Below, one piece after another: positions 14,943-27,088 of a DNA stretch of 41,547 bases. The first letter of the stretch is position 1; every line of letters starts with the position of its first letter. Both the position numbers and the translations under genes were made by a program. The notes beneath the pieces are model-generated. The model saw only the letters and a list, made by a program, of their open reading frames with translations. It did no database searches and had not been told where the DNA came from. Origin of the DNA: Akkermansia muciniphila (GTDB taxonomy: Bacteria > Verrucomicrobiota > Verrucomicrobiia > Chthoniobacterales > Chthoniobacteraceae); NCBI GenBank assembly GCA_945874745.1, contig CAMCIN010000004.1, positions 1 through 41,547 of the forward strand. The letters run 5' to 3'.

Positions 14943-14990
14943 TTGACTTCCGTTCGCAAATTTGCGAACAATGGAAGAGGAGGGAAGGCC
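14943..14990 (+). promoter_or_regulatory. Toxin-antitoxin promoter, palindromic operator and strong RBS
   Basis: TTGACT (14943-14948) is followed by the perfect 18-bp palindrome GTTCGCAAATTTGCGAAC (14952-14969) and AACAAT as a weak -10. A strong Shine-Dalgarno sequence AGGAGGG (14978-14984) stands six bases before the GTG at 14991. The palindrome sits in the promoter spacer, the expected place for autorepression by the antitoxin. Confidence 0.65.
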
Positions 14991-15362
14991 GTGCCCAAAA
15001 CAAAAGTCGTGTTCTATAGAGAGGAAGACGGTTCCGTTCCGGTGCTTGAGTGGCTGGGTGGGTTGCCCGTAAAGGCTGTCGCCAAATGTCTGGTCAGAAT
15101 TGAGCGGTTACAACAACTCGGTCATGAACTGCGCCGCCCTGAAGCCGACCTTCTACGGAATAAAATCTACGAGTTGAGAGTGGGCTTACAGGGAGCAAAC
15201 TACCGCATCCTGTACTTTTTTCTCGATGACATCGCGGCTGTTCTTGCGCATGGCCTCGTCAAGGAGAGCGGTGTGCCACCGAAAGAGATTGAACGGGCCC
15301 TTGAGCGGAGGAAGCGGTTTGAACTGAATCCGAAAAGACACACCTATGAGGAGGAAATTTGA
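14991..15362 (+). CDS. HigB/RelE-like toxin (phage Gp49-like family)
   Basis: This 123-residue protein resembles Gp49-like/HigB toxins, ribosome-dependent mRNA interferases of the RelE fold. The characteristic core is IYELRVGLQGANYRILYF, then a hydrophobic strand and HGLVKESGVPPKEIERAL, matching the family pattern of a YElR strand, YRilY strand and a K-rich helix. I start at GTG 14991 because it follows AGGAGGG at good spacing; the track's TTG 16 codons upstream lies inside the promoter. The antitoxin gene follows after one base. Base composition looks lower in GC than its neighbours, and the strong Shine-Dalgarno sequence is unlike them, so recent transfer is plausible. Confidence 0.85.
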   Translation: MPKTKVVFYREEDGSVPVLEWLGGLPVKAVAKCLVRIERLQQLGHELRRPEADLLRNKIYELRVGLQGANYRILYFFLDDIAAVLAHGLVKESGVPPKEIERALERRKRFELNPKRHTYEEEI

Positions 15363-15363
15363 G

Positions 15364-15711
15364 ATGAAACAGAAAGAGCCAACGACCGATGCGAGTGCAA
15401 TCATTCGGAAGCGGTTCTTTGAGGGGAAACCTCACCGGCTTGCGGAGTTGGAAAAACTGCACGCTGACGACGCGGTCGCGAGAAAAATTGTCGCGCTGCG
15501 CACAGAAGCGGGCCTCTCGCAGAGGGACCTTGCAAAGCTGGTGGGTACGACTGCCTCGGTCATCTGCCGACTTGAGGACGCCGATTATGAAGGGCATTCT
15601 TTGGCGCTGCTCAACCGTATCGCAGCGGCATTGGACCGCCGCGTCGAGATTCGGTTCGTCCCCCTGCGCGGCGCGAAGCGTTCCAGCAGGCGGGCGGTTG
15701 CCGCTGTTTAA
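15364..15711 (+). CDS. HigA-like antitoxin, XRE helix-turn-helix
   Basis: This 115-residue protein has an HTH_3-type DNA-binding domain at about residues 43-100: KIVALRTEAGLSQRDLAKLV followed by GTTASVICRLEDADYEGHSL. It is expected to neutralise the adjacent toxin and repress the promoter at the 18-bp palindrome. The start is ATG 15364, one base after the toxin stop and nine bases after GAGGAGG; the ATG at 15346 used by the track lies before that Shine-Dalgarno sequence. Gene order is toxin first, as in higBA systems. Its tail is basic (KRSSRRAV). It converges with the cvfB-like gene 30 bp away. Confidence 0.85.
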   Translation: MKQKEPTTDASAIIRKRFFEGKPHRLAELEKLHADDAVARKIVALRTEAGLSQRDLAKLVGTTASVICRLEDADYEGHSLALLNRIAAALDRRVEIRFVPLRGAKRSSRRAVAAV

Positions 15712-16581: not shown

Positions 16582-16691
16582 CCCGGCACCTTAGACCCAG
16601 TACGCCCAAGCGGCACGAACGAAAACGGGCGCCCCCCGGACAGTGTTCCCAGCAGGTCACTTTGCGCGGGCTTCTCATGAAAAAGGTAGGA

Positions 16692-16767
16692 ATCCACAGA
16701 TGTCTCAGATGCCGCAGATGTTTTTTATGGTTTCTTCTAATCTGTTGAATCTGTACCATCTGCGGAT
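16692..16767 (+). repeat. CAGAT 9-nt-phased repeat element, copy 2
   Basis: Termini are ATCCACAGAT and ATCTGCGGAT. The left arm reads as three units ending CAGAT, the right arm as units AATCTG, AATCTG and CATCTG in 9-nt phase, with the T-rich centre GTTTTTTATGGTTTC. The right end abuts the hscB stop codon. It shares the ATGAAAAAGGTAGG flank type with copies 1 and 6. Confidence 0.88.
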
Positions 16768-17385
16768 TCAACTCTGGACAGCCGATTGGGCAAGGCGCAC
16801 CCGGGATTCGCGTAACTGGACCCGCCAGCGCTGGAGGAAGACCATTTCACGAAGGACCTTCCACAGCGAGTCGAGCAGCTCAGGCGTCCTTCTTTCCCAG
16901 ATGGTGTCCGCCGCGTGAATCTGGGTTTCGCAACGCTGCCAGTGGTGCTCGACCCTTTGGCTGAGCTGCTCCAGATCGTGCCCGAGGGAGAGGCGGTCGG
17001 ACTGCAACAGCGCACGGCTCAGGGGGGATTGCGTGGCGGGTTGCTGCGCGTGAAAGGCCTGCAGCTGCCGGTCGAAGGTCGCGATGCTCATGAACAGGTC
17101 CGTCAGCGCGTCGGTAAGCTGTGTCCCGGACTGTGCCGCCGTGCGGTCGGGGCATTCCAAATGGAGGACGCATTCCAGCCGCTTGACCGGGTCGCGCAGC
17201 AACAGATGCGCCCCGACCAGTTCTTGAAACCGAGTCCCAGCCTCCGGATCCGAATTGGTGTCGGGATGCCAATGGGCGGCAAGTTTGACAAACCGGGACT
17301 GCAGGGTTTCCCGCTCGATCCAAGGGCGCACGGGCAGGCCCAGGGTCTCGAAGGCGGTGGGCAGGGAAGCGGGTTCAGACTGCAT
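16768..17385 (-). CDS. hscB: HscB-like J-domain co-chaperone
   Basis: This 205-residue protein has a J-domain at about residues 10-75 with the HPD motif at 40-42 (AAHWHPDTN), which stimulates Hsp70 ATPase, followed by a helical C-terminal domain as in HscB, the iron-sulfur assembly co-chaperone. The CVLHLECP segment is near the usual J-to-C-terminal junction. ATG 17385 overlaps the stop of the phosphohexomutase gene by one base (TGATG), implying coupled translation. The track start at 17433 is an out-of-context extension. No iscU, hscA or fdx is nearby, so the partner Hsp70 must be elsewhere. It could be a general J-protein rather than a true HscB. Confidence 0.75.
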   Translation of the reverse strand: MQSEPASLPTAFETLGLPVRPWIERETLQSRFVKLAAHWHPDTNSDPEAGTRFQELVGAHLLLRDPVKRLECVLHLECPDRTAAQSGTQLTDALTDLFMSIATFDRQLQAFHAQQPATQSPLSRALLQSDRLSLGHDLEQLSQRVEHHWQRCETQIHAADTIWERRTPELLDSLWKVLREMVFLQRWRVQLRESRVRLAQSAVQS

Positions 17386-19526: not shown

Positions 19527-19988
19527 ATGACCCACGAACAGCGTTTTAGCAGTCTTCAACTCCAACTCCCGCAAGCGCCAAAGCCCGTCGCCGTCTACCG
19601 GCCGCTGGTGGTCTGCCAGCAACTGGCCTATGTCTCGGGCCACGGCCCCGTCTGTCTGGACGGGAGCCTGATCCAGGGCAGGGTGGGGGCGGAACTGACC
19701 CTCGAGGAGGGCTACGCCGCGGCGCGGCAGGTGGGATTGGCGATTCTTTCCACGCTCAAGGCCTACTTTGGTTCTCTGGACAAAATTGCCCGCGTGGTGA
19801 AAGTACTGGGCATGGTCAATTCCGCTCCTGAATTTTACGAACATCCCAAGGTCATCAACGGTTGCAGCGAACTGTTTGCCCAGGTGTTCGGGGAGGAACA
19901 CGGCATCGGAGCGCGGAGTGCGGTCGGCATGGGGCCGCTGCCGGGGAACATCGCGGTGGAAATTGAAGTGATCTTTGAACTCGTATGA
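19527..19988 (+). CDS. RidA-family (YjgF/UK114) protein
   Basis: RidA proteins hydrolyse reactive enamines and imines, such as 2-aminoacrylate, released by PLP enzymes. This 153-residue protein has the family length and signatures: AYVSGHGPV, LTLEEGYAAARQ, the KIARVVKVLGMVNSAPEFYE strand-helix, and GARSAVGMGPLP followed by AVEIEVIFEL, in which the arginine is the expected carboxylate-binding residue. It belongs to a longer RidA subgroup rather than the archetype. Its stop overlaps the start of a PLP enzyme gene (ATGA at 19985-19988), a functional pairing consistent with enamine detoxification. Confidence 0.88.
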   Translation: MTHEQRFSSLQLQLPQAPKPVAVYRPLVVCQQLAYVSGHGPVCLDGSLIQGRVGAELTLEEGYAAARQVGLAILSTLKAYFGSLDKIARVVKVLGMVNSAPEFYEHPKVINGCSELFAQVFGEEHGIGARSAVGMGPLPGNIAVEIEVIFELV

Positions 19989-21100
19989 CGCCTTGGACTG
20001 AATGGATGCGGTTGGACAATGAGGACGAGGTGCCTTCGCCGGCGCTGGTGCTGCACATGGAAAGGGTGGAGCGCAACCTCGCCCAGATGCTGGCCATGAG
20101 CAGCGGGCCGGCGACGCTTCGGCCCCACGTAAAAACCCACAAGCTTCCCCAGATCGTGGCAATGCAAGTGGCCATGGGCATCACCAAGTGCAAGTGCTCC
20201 ACCATTGCGGAAGCCGAGATGGCCGCCACCGCAGGCGCGCTGGACATCCTCCTGGCGCTGCAGCCCGTGGGACCGGCCGTCGGCCGGTTTCTGCACCTGA
20301 TCCGCGCGTTTCCAGAGGTGCATTTCTCTGTGATTGTCGATTCCCCGCTGGTGGCGGCCGAGCTCAACCAGGCGGCCCTCGAAGCCGGCATCAGAATCGA
20401 GGCGTTGCTCGACTTGGATGTCGGCATGGGCCGTTCCGGAATCCTGCGCGGCGACCTTGCCGCCACCCTGTACGCCGAGATGAGCGAACTGCCCGGAATT
20501 CACGTCGGCGGGCTCCACGCCTACGACGGCCACATTCACCAAAGCGACGTCGGGGACCGCACCGAGGCCTGCAACCGTTCCTTTGAGGCGGTCGAATGGC
20601 TTCGCGGCCAGTTGCTCGCCTCCGGTTTTTCGGTCGCCAAAGTGGTGGCCGGAGGCACTCCCACTTTCCCAATGCACGCCCGCCGGGAAGGGGTGGAATG
20701 CAGTCCGGGTACCTCGGTGCTTTGGGACGCCGGCTACTCCAGAAAGCTGCCGGACTTGGAGTTTCTCCCAGCCGCCACGCTCCTGGCCCGGGTGGTGAGC
20801 CGGCCCGGGGTGGCCAGGCTCTGCCTCGATTTGGGGCACAAGGCCGTCGCCAGTGAAATGCCGCACCCCCGGGTGGTCTTCCCCGACCTGCCCGACGCCC
20901 GGGCCGTCATGCACAGCGAGGAGCACCTGGTGGTCGACACCGCCCGCGCCGCGCAGTTCCCGGTGGGCACCGTTGTGCACGGCATTCCGTGGCACATCTG
21001 TCCCACGGTCGCCCTCCACAGCGAGGTGGTTGTCGCCCGCGCCGGCCTCGCCTCGGACACCTGGCCGGTGGTTGCCCGCGCCCGCAGGATCACAATTTAA
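19985..21100 (+). CDS. D-threonine aldolase/D-serine dehydratase-like PLP enzyme
   Basis: This fold-type III PLP enzyme of 371 residues is in the alanine-racemase-N/DSD superfamily. The PLP lysine is Lys50 in RPHVKTHK. The barrel contains ALLDLDVGMGRSG and VVAGGTPTFP. Near the C-terminus the metal motif is His337-x-Cys339 (WHICPT). As I recall, eukaryotic D-serine dehydratases bind zinc with HxC while D-threonine aldolases use HxD, so D-serine dehydratase-type elimination is favoured. It is coupled to a RidA-family gene and followed by a dipeptidase gene. The substrate is unproven. Confidence 0.82.
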   Translation: MTPWTEWMRLDNEDEVPSPALVLHMERVERNLAQMLAMSSGPATLRPHVKTHKLPQIVAMQVAMGITKCKCSTIAEAEMAATAGALDILLALQPVGPAVGRFLHLIRAFPEVHFSVIVDSPLVAAELNQAALEAGIRIEALLDLDVGMGRSGILRGDLAATLYAEMSELPGIHVGGLHAYDGHIHQSDVGDRTEACNRSFEAVEWLRGQLLASGFSVAKVVAGGTPTFPMHARREGVECSPGTSVLWDAGYSRKLPDLEFLPAATLLARVVSRPGVARLCLDLGHKAVASEMPHPRVVFPDLPDARAVMHSEEHLVVDTARAAQFPVGTVVHGIPWHICPTVALHSEVVVARAGLASDTWPVVARARRITI

Positions 21101-21138
21101 GGTGTCCTCTCGGTGTCCTCCGCTGAGGCAGAGGTGTG

Positions 21139-21209
21139 ATCCACAGATTTCGCAGATGTGAGAAATGTTTTATGTTTTTTTATCTGCGGCATCTGTGCGA
21201 TCTGCGGAT
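21139..21209 (+). repeat. CAGAT 9-nt-phased repeat element, copy 3
   Basis: Termini ATCCACAGAT and ATCTGCGGAT bound a 71-bp element. The right arm shows three clean 9-nt units (ATCTGCGGC, ATCTGTGCG, then ATCTGCGGAT). The centre is T-rich (GTTTTATGTTTTTTT). It lies between the D-serine dehydratase-like gene and the dipeptidase gene and is preceded by GTG as in copies 1, 4 and 5. Confidence 0.88.
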
Positions 21210-21242
21210 ACAGCTTTGAAAGCCTCAGCCCCCCTTTGAACT

Positions 21243-22364
21243 ATGCTCCTCATTGACGCGCATCTGGACCTCGCAATCAACGCCATCGAATGGAACCGAG
21301 ACCTGACCTGCCCGGTGGACGCTATCCGTGCGACGGAAGCGCATCTGACCGACAAGCCCGACCGCGGCCGCGGGACGGTCAGTCTGCCGGAGTTGCGGCG
21401 GGCCGGGATCGGGGTGTGTGTCGCCACGCAGTTGGCGCGGGTCGAGCTGGATGCGTGGAGTCCCATCAAGGGTTGGCGCTCGCAGGCGCAGGCCTGGGCG
21501 ATGACGCAGGCCCAGCTTTCGTGGTACCGCGCCATGGAGGAGGCGGGGGAGATGGTCCAGATTCGGGATGCCGCCGCCCTCACCGCGCAGGTCGCCAACT
21601 GGGAGGCCGCGTTGGAACGCAAGGACGGCTCGCACCTAAAGCTGCCCGTGGGGTACGTGCTTTCTTTGGAGGGGGCAGATTCCCTTGTCTCGTTGGATCA
21701 CCTGCACCGCGCCCACGCTGACGGGCTTCGGGCGATCGGCCCCGCCCACTACGGCCCGGGTGTGTACGCCAACGGCACCGACTCCACGGGCCGGCTCAAC
21801 GAAAAGGGGCTCGCCTTGCTGCAGGAGGCGGCTGGGCTCGGGTTGATTCTGGATGCGACCCACCTGTGTGATGACGCGTTTTTCCAGGCTATGGACCTGT
21901 ATCAGGGCCCTGTTTGGGCGAGCCACCACAATTGCCGGGCCCTTGTCCCCCACAACCGCCAGCTCAGCGATGAAATGATCCTCGCTCTGGCACGGCGCGA
22001 CGCCGTTATCGGCGTGGCGTTTGACGCCTGGATGCTGGCTCCCAATTGGGTGCGGGGGCAGACGACCCCCGAGGCCGCCGGGGTGAGCCTCCAGACGGTG
22101 GCCGACCACATCGACCACATCTGCCAGGTGGTCGGCTCCGCGCTGCACGTGGGCATCGGGTCGGATTTGGACGGTTGCTTTGGCACCGAACAGACGCCCC
22201 GGGATCTGAATACCATCTTTGACCTGACGCGGCTCCCCGCAGTGCTCGCGGAACGGGGCTACTCCCCCACGGACGTCTGGACGATTCTGTGCGGAAACTT
22301 TCTCCGCAAGCTCGGCGAGTCGCTTCCCGAAGGCAGCCCCCGGAGCTTCCCCCAGAACCCGTGA
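21243..22364 (+). CDS. M19-family dipeptidase (renal dipeptidase-like)
   Basis: This zinc dipeptidase of 373 residues belongs to family M19, which cleaves dipeptides and tolerates a D-residue at the C-terminus. Metal ligands are visible: His7 and Asp9 in DAHLDL (usually DGHNDL), the bridging Glu in SLEGADS, and the His residues in DATHLCD and ASHHNCR. VGIGSDLDGC is the substrate-side motif. No signal peptide is present, so it is probably cytoplasmic despite the name membrane dipeptidase. Its position after the D-amino-acid-type PLP enzyme suggests salvage of D-amino acids from peptides. Confidence 0.88.
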   Translation: MLLIDAHLDLAINAIEWNRDLTCPVDAIRATEAHLTDKPDRGRGTVSLPELRRAGIGVCVATQLARVELDAWSPIKGWRSQAQAWAMTQAQLSWYRAMEEAGEMVQIRDAAALTAQVANWEAALERKDGSHLKLPVGYVLSLEGADSLVSLDHLHRAHADGLRAIGPAHYGPGVYANGTDSTGRLNEKGLALLQEAAGLGLILDATHLCDDAFFQAMDLYQGPVWASHHNCRALVPHNRQLSDEMILALARRDAVIGVAFDAWMLAPNWVRGQTTPEAAGVSLQTVADHIDHICQVVGSALHVGIGSDLDGCFGTEQTPRDLNTIFDLTRLPAVLAERGYSPTDVWTILCGNFLRKLGESLPEGSPRSFPQNP

Positions 22365-23753: not shown

Positions 23754-24031
23754 GCTAATTAACAGAGAACATGCCCTTTCATCTGAGGATGACTGCCAGG
23801 TCCATTTGGAGTGAGCTTTCGGAGTGAGCTAGTGGATACCCACCGAAAACAGCGGGGAACCAGCGGTTTATTCAGAAAGGGCCGACGGCAAGGACCTAGG
23901 GAGTGGCGCCCCGCAGCAGGCACCGCCGCGAGGGCGTTCCGGAGCGCCGGGCGGGACTTCCCCGAGTGCGGCAGTTCCCAGCGGTAGCGCTTGGTCTTGC
24001 AGGAGGGGCGGGGGGCGTGGAGGCTCTTTCC

Positions 24032-25000
24032 ATGGACAAACCCGACCCCGTCTATTCTGCCATCCCCGTGGGAGCGTTCTTCGAGCGCCATGGGGCGGCT
24101 CTGAAAATGGAGCGCCTGGACCATTCCTCGATCGGCATGGAACGGGAAATCCGGGAGCCGACGCTTAATCGGCCGGGGTTGGCGCTGTCGGGTTTCTTCA
24201 CCTACTTTGCCGAAAAACGGATTCAGGTGTTTGGGGCCGCGGAGCTGTCGTATTTGGGGAGCTTGAACGTGGTGGAAGCCCAGGGGCGTTGCCGTTCGTT
24301 GTGCGGGCGCCCGATTCCCTGCATCGTGATTGCGCGGGGGTTTGAGCCGCCGGCCTATCTTTTGGGGGAGGCGGCGGCGGCCGGCATCGCGGTGTTCATC
24401 AGCCAGATGGTGACGATGAACTTTTTGAATGCGGCGACGATCGCCCTTTCGCACGAGTTTGCTCCTTCCAAGAGCGAGTACGGCTCCATGGTGGACATTC
24501 TGGGGGTGGGGACGCTGATCCGAGGCTCGAGCGGGATCGGCAAAAGCGAGTGCGTGCTGGGGTTGTTGGAGCGGGGACACAGCCTGGTGAGCGACGACAT
24601 CACCCGGTACCGCGCGATCGAAGGCAGCGAGTTGCTGGGGACGTCCCCCGATCTGACGCGGCACCACATGGAGGTGCGGGGGCTCGGGGTGATCAACGTG
24701 ATGTCGATCTTCGGGGTGGGGAGCGTGCGCCTGGAGAAGCGGCTGGATCTGGTGGTCACGTTGCGGGACTGGGCGGAAATGGAGGATGTGGACCGGACCG
24801 GGCTGGACCAAAGCTATTTTGAGATCCTGGGGGTGCGGGTGCCGCACGTGACAATTCCCGTGCGGACTGGGCGGGATCTGGCGCGCTTGGTGGAGGTTGC
24901 CGCGCTGGATCAGAAGCTCAAGGGGATGGGGCACCACAGCGCGCAGGAGTTCAACGAGCGGCTGCTGGCGTTAATGCAGCAAAAGGGGTCGTCAACCTGA
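24032..25000 (+). CDS. hprK: HPr kinase/phosphorylase with His-to-Tyr change
   Basis: HprK phosphorylates and dephosphorylates the regulatory serine of HPr. From ATG 24032 it is 322 residues. The N-terminal HPr-binding domain is followed by the P-loop GSSGIGKSE (165-173), LVSDD (185-189) with the catalytic aspartate, and the family signature EVRGLGVINVM. The position of the conserved histidine of the IHGVLVD motif in Bacillus subtilis is Tyr150 (SEYGSMVD; codon TAC). That histidine takes part in catalysis in characterised enzymes, so activity may be altered. The gene precedes ptsH and ptsI by 36 bp. GGAGG nine bases upstream supports the start. Confidence 0.92.
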   Translation: MDKPDPVYSAIPVGAFFERHGAALKMERLDHSSIGMEREIREPTLNRPGLALSGFFTYFAEKRIQVFGAAELSYLGSLNVVEAQGRCRSLCGRPIPCIVIARGFEPPAYLLGEAAAAGIAVFISQMVTMNFLNAATIALSHEFAPSKSEYGSMVDILGVGTLIRGSSGIGKSECVLGLLERGHSLVSDDITRYRAIEGSELLGTSPDLTRHHMEVRGLGVINVMSIFGVGSVRLEKRLDLVVTLRDWAEMEDVDRTGLDQSYFEILGVRVPHVTIPVRTGRDLARLVEVAALDQKLKGMGHHSAQEFNERLLALMQQKGSST

Positions 25001-25036
25001 ACCTAGGTGCTATACTCCCGCGTTTTAACCCCAACC

Positions 25037-25300
25037 GTGACGAAAGACCTGACCATCCAAAACCGCCTGGGACTTCACGCGCGCCCCTCAGCCATGTTCG
25101 TGAAGACGTGCAACCGTTTTAAGTGCGAAATCTGGGTGGAAAAAGACGGGGAGAAGGTGAATGGGAAAAGCATCATGGGACTGATGATGCTCGCCGCCGG
25201 GCTCGGTTCGCTGCTGCGCGTCAGCTGCGAGGGGGAGGACGCTGAAAAGGCGATGCTTGAGATTGAGCAACTGCTTGCCAACAAGTTTCACGAAGACTGA
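25037..25300 (+). CDS. ptsH: Phosphocarrier protein HPr
   Basis: HPr carries phosphate from enzyme I on a histidine and is phosphorylated on serine by HprK. From GTG 25037 the protein is 87 residues, the usual length. The active-site His14 is in NRLGLHARPSA, and the regulatory Ser45 is in NGKSIMGLMML, matching His15 and Ser46 of well-known HPrs. The track starts at GTG 25007, which adds ten residues not seen in HPr. It lies between hprK and ptsI (24-bp gap), probably one operon. No Shine-Dalgarno sequence precedes either GTG. Confidence 0.93.
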   Translation: MTKDLTIQNRLGLHARPSAMFVKTCNRFKCEIWVEKDGEKVNGKSIMGLMMLAAGLGSLLRVSCEGEDAEKAMLEIEQLLANKFHED

Positions 25301-25324
25301 CCGGAAGGCTGCTCCGCGCCTGTT

Positions 25325-27088
<1,764 letters not shown>

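Follow-up and report, generated by a model that had tools for sequence, protein, structure and literature searches.

Genes and repeat elements of the locus

The window analysed here is the whole stretch of 41,547 nucleotides, and it carries three neighbouring genes on the same strand whose products all match Pfam families above the gathering cut-offs. The first gene (19527..19988, + strand) encodes a 153-residue, Rid1-like protein of the RidA family (PF14588, 62.6 bits; also PF01042), whose nearest characterised Rid1 proteins are PA0814 and ACIAD3089. The codon at 19914..19916 (+) specifies Arg130, which the homologue alignment equates with the catalytic arginine of RidA. The second gene (19985..21100, +) encodes a 371-residue fold-type-III metal/PLP enzyme of the D-TA/DSD superfamily (PF01168, 67 bits; PF14031, 64.1 bits) and overlaps the first by 4 nt, through an ATGA stop/start sequence at 19985..19988 (+). 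Its PLP-binding lysine, Lys50 (codon at 20132..20134, +), is invariant in 108 of 108 homologues and in all references. The His and Cys of its metal motif, His337-Ile-Cys339 (20993..21001, +), are kept in all 108 homologues as well, including order-level relatives at ~28% identity. The third gene (21243..22364, +) encodes a 373-residue M19 dipeptidase (PF01244, 152.6 bits). An earlier note on this DNA had described a RidA gene overlapping a PLP enzyme gene with His337 and Cys339 in an HxC motif, followed by an M19 gene, and our gene calls and alignment agree with it on all of these points, ORF coordinates included.

By their Pfam matches, the flanks of the triad are unrelated to it: a phosphoglucomutase gene on the opposite strand and an ion channel gene. 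Genes for HPr kinase, HPr and PTS enzyme I follow the ion channel gene consecutively (23903-27088). Elsewhere in the window, a Gp49-like (HigB/RelE type) gene and an overlapping HTH gene (14943-15711) are likely to form a toxin-antitoxin pair, judging from their Pfam families.

The 142-nt gap between the PLP and M19 genes holds a dispersed inverted repeat, the CAGAT element (21139..21209, no strand assigned), with arms of 20 nt. It occurs at 20 places in the genome among the matches listed, and a related dispersed repeat at 16640-16780 has 45 genome matches; together they represent a family of dispersed intergenic inverted repeats of the CAGAT/ATCTGCGG type. Several consecutive copies of this family lie upstream of a second M19 gene in the source genome (G000:C108:5212-5583). 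The CAGAT element is found at the same site in a sister genome, which encodes a PLP enzyme 96% identical to that of the window. The intergenic RNA is predicted to fold into a hairpin of -53 kcal/mol (z -4.1), and the gap yielded no site resembling a promoter or a terminator. Co-transcription of the PLP and M19 genes across the element is plausible, and the predicted hairpin might tune M19 expression.

Conservation of the gene grouping

We scanned GTDB genome contigs, which yielded 80 relatives of the PLP enzyme, and then used family profiles on their loci. Upstream neighbours were counted in 75 distinct loci with sufficient upstream sequence and downstream neighbours in the 61 of these with at least 3 kb downstream; operon totals were counted on distinct contigs. 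In 51 of 75 loci a Rid gene lies immediately 5′ of the PLP gene, so that about one-third of the relatives lack a RidA gene at this place. In the next positions 3′ of the PLP gene we found an M19 gene in 27 of 61 loci and a GntP-family permease gene in 17 of 61. At least one partner gene is present in 47/61 loci and none in 14/61, while 18/61 have the Rid-PLP pair with neither M19 nor GntP. The gene orders include Rid-PLP-M19 and Rid-PLP-GntP-M19. Where M19 directly follows the PLP gene in the loci listed, the gap is 22-102 nt, with the sister genome as the one exception (183 nt).

The grouping recurs throughout Verrucomicrobiota with differing flanks, and extends to Bacteroidota. Annotated records show RidA/D-TA/membrane dipeptidase in Hymenobacter volaticus and gluconate:H+ symporter/DUF4833/RidA/D-TA/membrane dipeptidase in Parabacteroides distasonis; the Parabacteroides locus also counts among those with a GntP-type permease. 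Homologues of the PLP enzyme are present in Planctomycetota too. Two sets of neighbours were rejected. An apparent 400-residue protein fused to M19 in several relatives is a shadow ORF, read out of frame across the GntP gene, and the DUF1549/PSCyt2, glucose/sorbosone dehydrogenase-like and ABC-ATPase genes are unlinked neighbours, their places varying and mostly on both strands.

The presence of the genes is correlated across 97 genomes. The PLP gene and strong matches to M19 occur together in 24 genomes, with the PLP enzyme only in 2, M19 only in 1 and neither in 70; the corresponding counts are 24, 2, 2 and 69 for Rid and 24, 2, 5 and 66 for GntP. The correlation remains significant among the genomes of a single family, with p-values of about 1e-7 (M19), 1e-6 (Rid) and 1e-5 (GntP), which are optimistic because the genomes are related and kinship inflates significance. 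In two genomes (G032 and G038) a close Rid homologue adjoins a GntP gene on a different contig from the PLP gene, indicating that Rid is tied to the transporter as well. We conclude that RidA-PLP-M19 is a conserved bacterial operon whose grouping far exceeds chance, with a GntP-family permease as a fourth recurrent member in relatives. The recurrent order and the co-occurrence over the 97 genomes thus bear out the earlier proposal that the three genes act as one module, a conserved functional unit.

The PLP enzyme belongs to a separate clade

We compared the PLP enzyme with characterised members of its superfamily by sequence, predicted fold, phylogeny and active-site residues. Its best sequence similarity is to D-threonine aldolases (146 bits with AxDTA versus 79 bits with chicken D-serine dehydratase). 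The AlphaFold2 model (pLDDT 94.5) matches the aldolases best (4v15, TM 0.89), followed by the dehydratases (TM 0.82-0.86). In an IQ-TREE phylogeny built without OngC, the window family forms a clade of its own (support 100/100) on a stem of 2.02, apart from an aldolase clade (100/98) and a clade of DSD, D-THA dehydratase and 3llx (100/99). The enzyme is therefore outside the characterised D-serine dehydratase clade, in a separate third clade.

The active site, compared by sequence alignment, combines features of both groups. Lys50 corresponds to Lys59 of AxDTA. The aldolases have HxD as their metal motif and the dehydratases HxC, in agreement with the AxDTA structure paper, which describes a His+Asp metal site in the aldolase and a His+Cys site in the dehydratase and 3llx, and reports that the aldolase base His193 is absent from the latter two (PMC4401734). 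In the His193 column, at best 71 of the 108 homologues have a His; the window His falls at this column in one of two alignments and one column off in the other. The Gln-Lys pair beside PLP in aldolases is Ser-Thr in the window enzyme, as in dehydratases, and T51, T73 and P226 are also dehydratase-like, while Tyr180, Lys286 and Pro340 are aldolase-like. Six residues (K70, H183, R269, R296, R365 and R367) are kept in nearly the whole clade and differ in most characterised relatives, which makes them candidates for determining substrate specificity.

The earlier note had taken HxC as the mark of a D-serine dehydratase rather than an aldolase, and had suggested aligning the motif with both. The first half of this reading stands: every homologue has HxC, as the dehydratases do, and none has HxD. 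The assignment to D-serine dehydratase does not, as the enzyme lies in its own clade and is nearest to the aldolases in both sequence and fold. Two alphaproteobacterial relatives outside all three clades also carry HxC, and the motif is shared by all sampled clades other than the aldolases, including clades with no assigned function. Consequently, HxC speaks against the known type of aldolase without singling out D-serine as the substrate. One distant HxC relative, on a plasmid of Loktanella salsilacus (L123, 3494-8131), is encoded in line with nagA and the genes for an M81 metallopeptidase and a ROK kinase. This setting hints at amino-sugar derivatives as substrates of some HxC members.

The Rid protein, the dipeptidase and the permease

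The matches of the Rid protein rank 3d01 first, Rid1 PA0814 second (76 bits) and Rid1 ACIAD3089 fourth (56 bits); both Rid1 proteins outscore 2b33 and 5yu2. Arg130 is kept in at least 97% of 73 Rid homologues, and the three references in the alignment all have it. By these sequence matches we classify the protein as Rid1-type. In vitro, PA0814 and ACIAD3089 act as 2-aminoacrylate deaminases, and they also complement a ridA mutant (PMC5619798).

In the M19 enzyme, H7, D9, E143, H169, H207, H228, R239 and D308 are conserved over 44 homologues, and we take the metal-ligand and catalytic positions among them to correspond to those of renal dipeptidase. The reading frame has no space for a signal peptide, so the enzyme should act in the cytoplasm. 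The second M19 of the source genome, encoded on contig C108, is 54% identical; its gene adjoins an MFS permease gene and an M81/MlrC-like metallopeptidase gene (L119, 3965-8546), possibly another peptide-use cluster.

The source genome has one PF14031 protein, and its other Rid proteins are a strong PF01042 RidA on contig C242 and a second Rid on contig C74. Its single GntP is also encoded on C74, with 56.6% identity to an operon GntP; the genome thus has a permease, although the window operon has none. The GntP family includes the D-serine transporter DsdX, and an operon GntP scores higher with a gluconate transporter model (320 bits) than with DsdX (252 bits). These scores mean that the permease does not decide between D-serine and D-glucosaminate-like chemistry.

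Proposed function and alternative explanations

We propose that the three genes are one cytoplasmic operon for degrading a D-configured beta-hydroxy amino acid, and we give this reading a probability of about 0.58. The M19 enzyme would act on a dipeptide whose C-terminal residue is a D-amino acid and free this amino acid. By homology of the active sites, the PLP enzyme would then bind it as an aldimine through Lys50, with a divalent metal on His337 and Cys339 activating the beta-hydroxyl, and would dehydrate the D-beta-hydroxy amino acid to an enamine. Rid1, as Arg130 and its tested relatives suggest, would convert the enamine or imine to a 2-oxo acid and ammonia, sparing PLP enzymes from damage. 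In many relatives, the GntP-family permease of the same operon would bring in free substrate. The PLP enzyme is probably a D-beta-hydroxy-amino-acid dehydratase or deaminase in the general sense; D-serine is the simplest and leading candidate for its substrate, and is unproven; D-Thr, D-3-hydroxyaspartate and D-glucosaminate are the other candidates. The earlier scheme, in which D-serine is released, undergoes elimination and is hydrolysed by the Rid protein, therefore survives in its class of chemistry, which is likely, and with Arg130 and the M19 active site intact. Its placing of the enzyme among the characterised D-serine dehydratases is not borne out by the phylogeny.

The conserved order and co-occurrence, the HxC motif, the dehydratase-like residues and the chemistry of Rid1 count in favour of a dehydration operon. 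The fold and sequence nearer to the aldolases, the long stem (2.02), the non-diagnostic HxC, the GntP scores and the partnerless loci count against it. We suggest, as a tentative possibility, that the PLP enzyme represents a third functional class within the fold-III metal/PLP superfamily, distinct from both the D-serine dehydratases and the D-threonine aldolases. The class would be a dedicated deaminase of another peptide-released D-beta-hydroxy amino acid, and its operon in Verrucomicrobiota and Bacteroidota, gut Parabacteroides among them, would supply a dipeptidase, an imine hydrolase and a permease as its partners.

Two alternatives change the reaction of the PLP enzyme. In the main one, which we regard as unlikely, the enzyme would deaminate D-glucosaminate (2-amino-2-deoxygluconate) or a like amino-sugar acid, forming a 2-keto-3-deoxy sugar acid, with GntP importing the substrate and Rid1 clearing the imine. 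OngC, a fold-III PLP deaminase with a RidA protein in its cluster, carries out this conversion and also accepts D-Ser and D-Thr (PMC9537276). GntP permeases are typical of gluconate-like acids, the operon GntP matches the gluconate models best, and a distant alphaproteobacterial relative adjoins nagA and a ROK kinase. However, such a pathway has no place for M19, and the recurrent neighbours identified include neither a D-aminoacylase nor a KDG kinase, a hexosaminidase or an SSS transporter. Less probable again is a retro-aldolase, acting on D-threonine or D-3-hydroxyaspartate to give glycine and an aldehyde. Its similarity in sequence and fold, the shared Tyr180, Lys286 and Pro340, and a window His at or beside the His193 column all point that way, but all 108 homologues have HxC in place of the HxD of every compared aldolase, the His193 position is not conserved, and aldol cleavage needs no linked imine hydrolase.

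Two further alternatives concern how the genes are connected. The triad could be neighbours serving separate pathways, with M19 in general peptide recycling. The 142-nt gap with its repeat, the 18/61 loci with the Rid-PLP pair lacking M19 and GntP, and the second M19 gene elsewhere would fit this arrangement; M19 lying closely 3′ of PLP or GntP in 27/61 relatives, the same grouping in Bacteroidota and the co-occurrence of M19 with the PLP enzyme make it improbable. Renal dipeptidase, of the M19 family, is a dehydropeptidase. By analogy with this activity, M19 might free 2-aminoacrylate from dehydroalanine peptides, with Rid1 mainly serving M19 and the PLP enzyme acting in parallel, and Rid and M19 do co-occur over the genomes searched. 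Yet the Rid gene of the window overlaps the PLP gene by 4 nt and Rid adjoins PLP in 18/61 loci without M19, and we consider this the least probable explanation, with very little chance of being right.

Comparison with known systems

Our search of the open-licence literature, which mostly leaves subscription papers outside its range, found no description of a RidA/DTA/M19/GntP module. The operon gives the group annotated as 'D-TA family PLP-dependent enzyme' a concrete, testable role and fixed partners, and since Parabacteroides distasonis and Hymenobacter carry it, the proposal is testable in cultured bacteria.

The window Rid protein shares sequence, length and the catalytic Arg with the Rid1 proteins PA0814 and ACIAD3089, and differs in a conserved His39 in place of Gln. 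Rid genes are described as clustering with PLP enzymes that produce such enamines (PMC4433059). In the passages of that paper on Rid gene neighbours, neither D-serine dehydratase nor the D-TA family was found. The D-TA/DSD partner differs from the neighbours given there and extends the known Rid neighbourhoods by a new PLP enzyme. Compared with the M19 dipeptidases 3fdg and SCO3058 (3id7), the window enzyme has the full set of metal- and substrate-binding residues, but lacks a signal peptide, and its nearest solved structure scores ~74 bits.

With the Zn D-serine dehydratases (chicken 3anu and yeast DSD1) and D-threo-3-hydroxyaspartate dehydratase (3wqc), the PLP enzyme shares the PF01168+PF14031 architecture, HxC and Ser-Thr near PLP. 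It differs from them in its separate clade, its lower scores (79 bits; TM 0.82-0.86 versus 0.89 for aldolases) and the family-only conserved K70, H183 and R365. The D-threonine aldolases (4v15, 7dib) and BhcC (6qkb) are closest in sequence and fold and share Tyr180, Lys286 and Pro340, whereas the window enzyme has HxC for HxD and His193 is not conserved in its family. The Pseudoalteromonas ong cluster for oxidative chitin use (OngC and OngD) also joins a RidA protein to a fold-III PLP enzyme, OngC, which deaminates a D-configured beta-hydroxy amino acid. Counterparts of its D-aminoacylase, KDG kinase, hexosaminidase and SSS transporter were not identified among the recurrent neighbours here, where M19 and GntP occur instead, and OngD has 127 residues compared to 153 in the window Rid.

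Many relatives resemble E. coli dsdCXA in that a GntP-family permease adjoins a PLP-dependent enzyme of the D-amino-acid dehydratase type. Unlike dsdCXA, the operon contains RidA and M19 and has no recurrent LysR regulator, and DsdA has a different, non-homologous PLP fold. The operon suggests a route by which abundant freshwater and gut bacteria may use the D-amino acids of peptides through an enzyme unrelated to DsdA.
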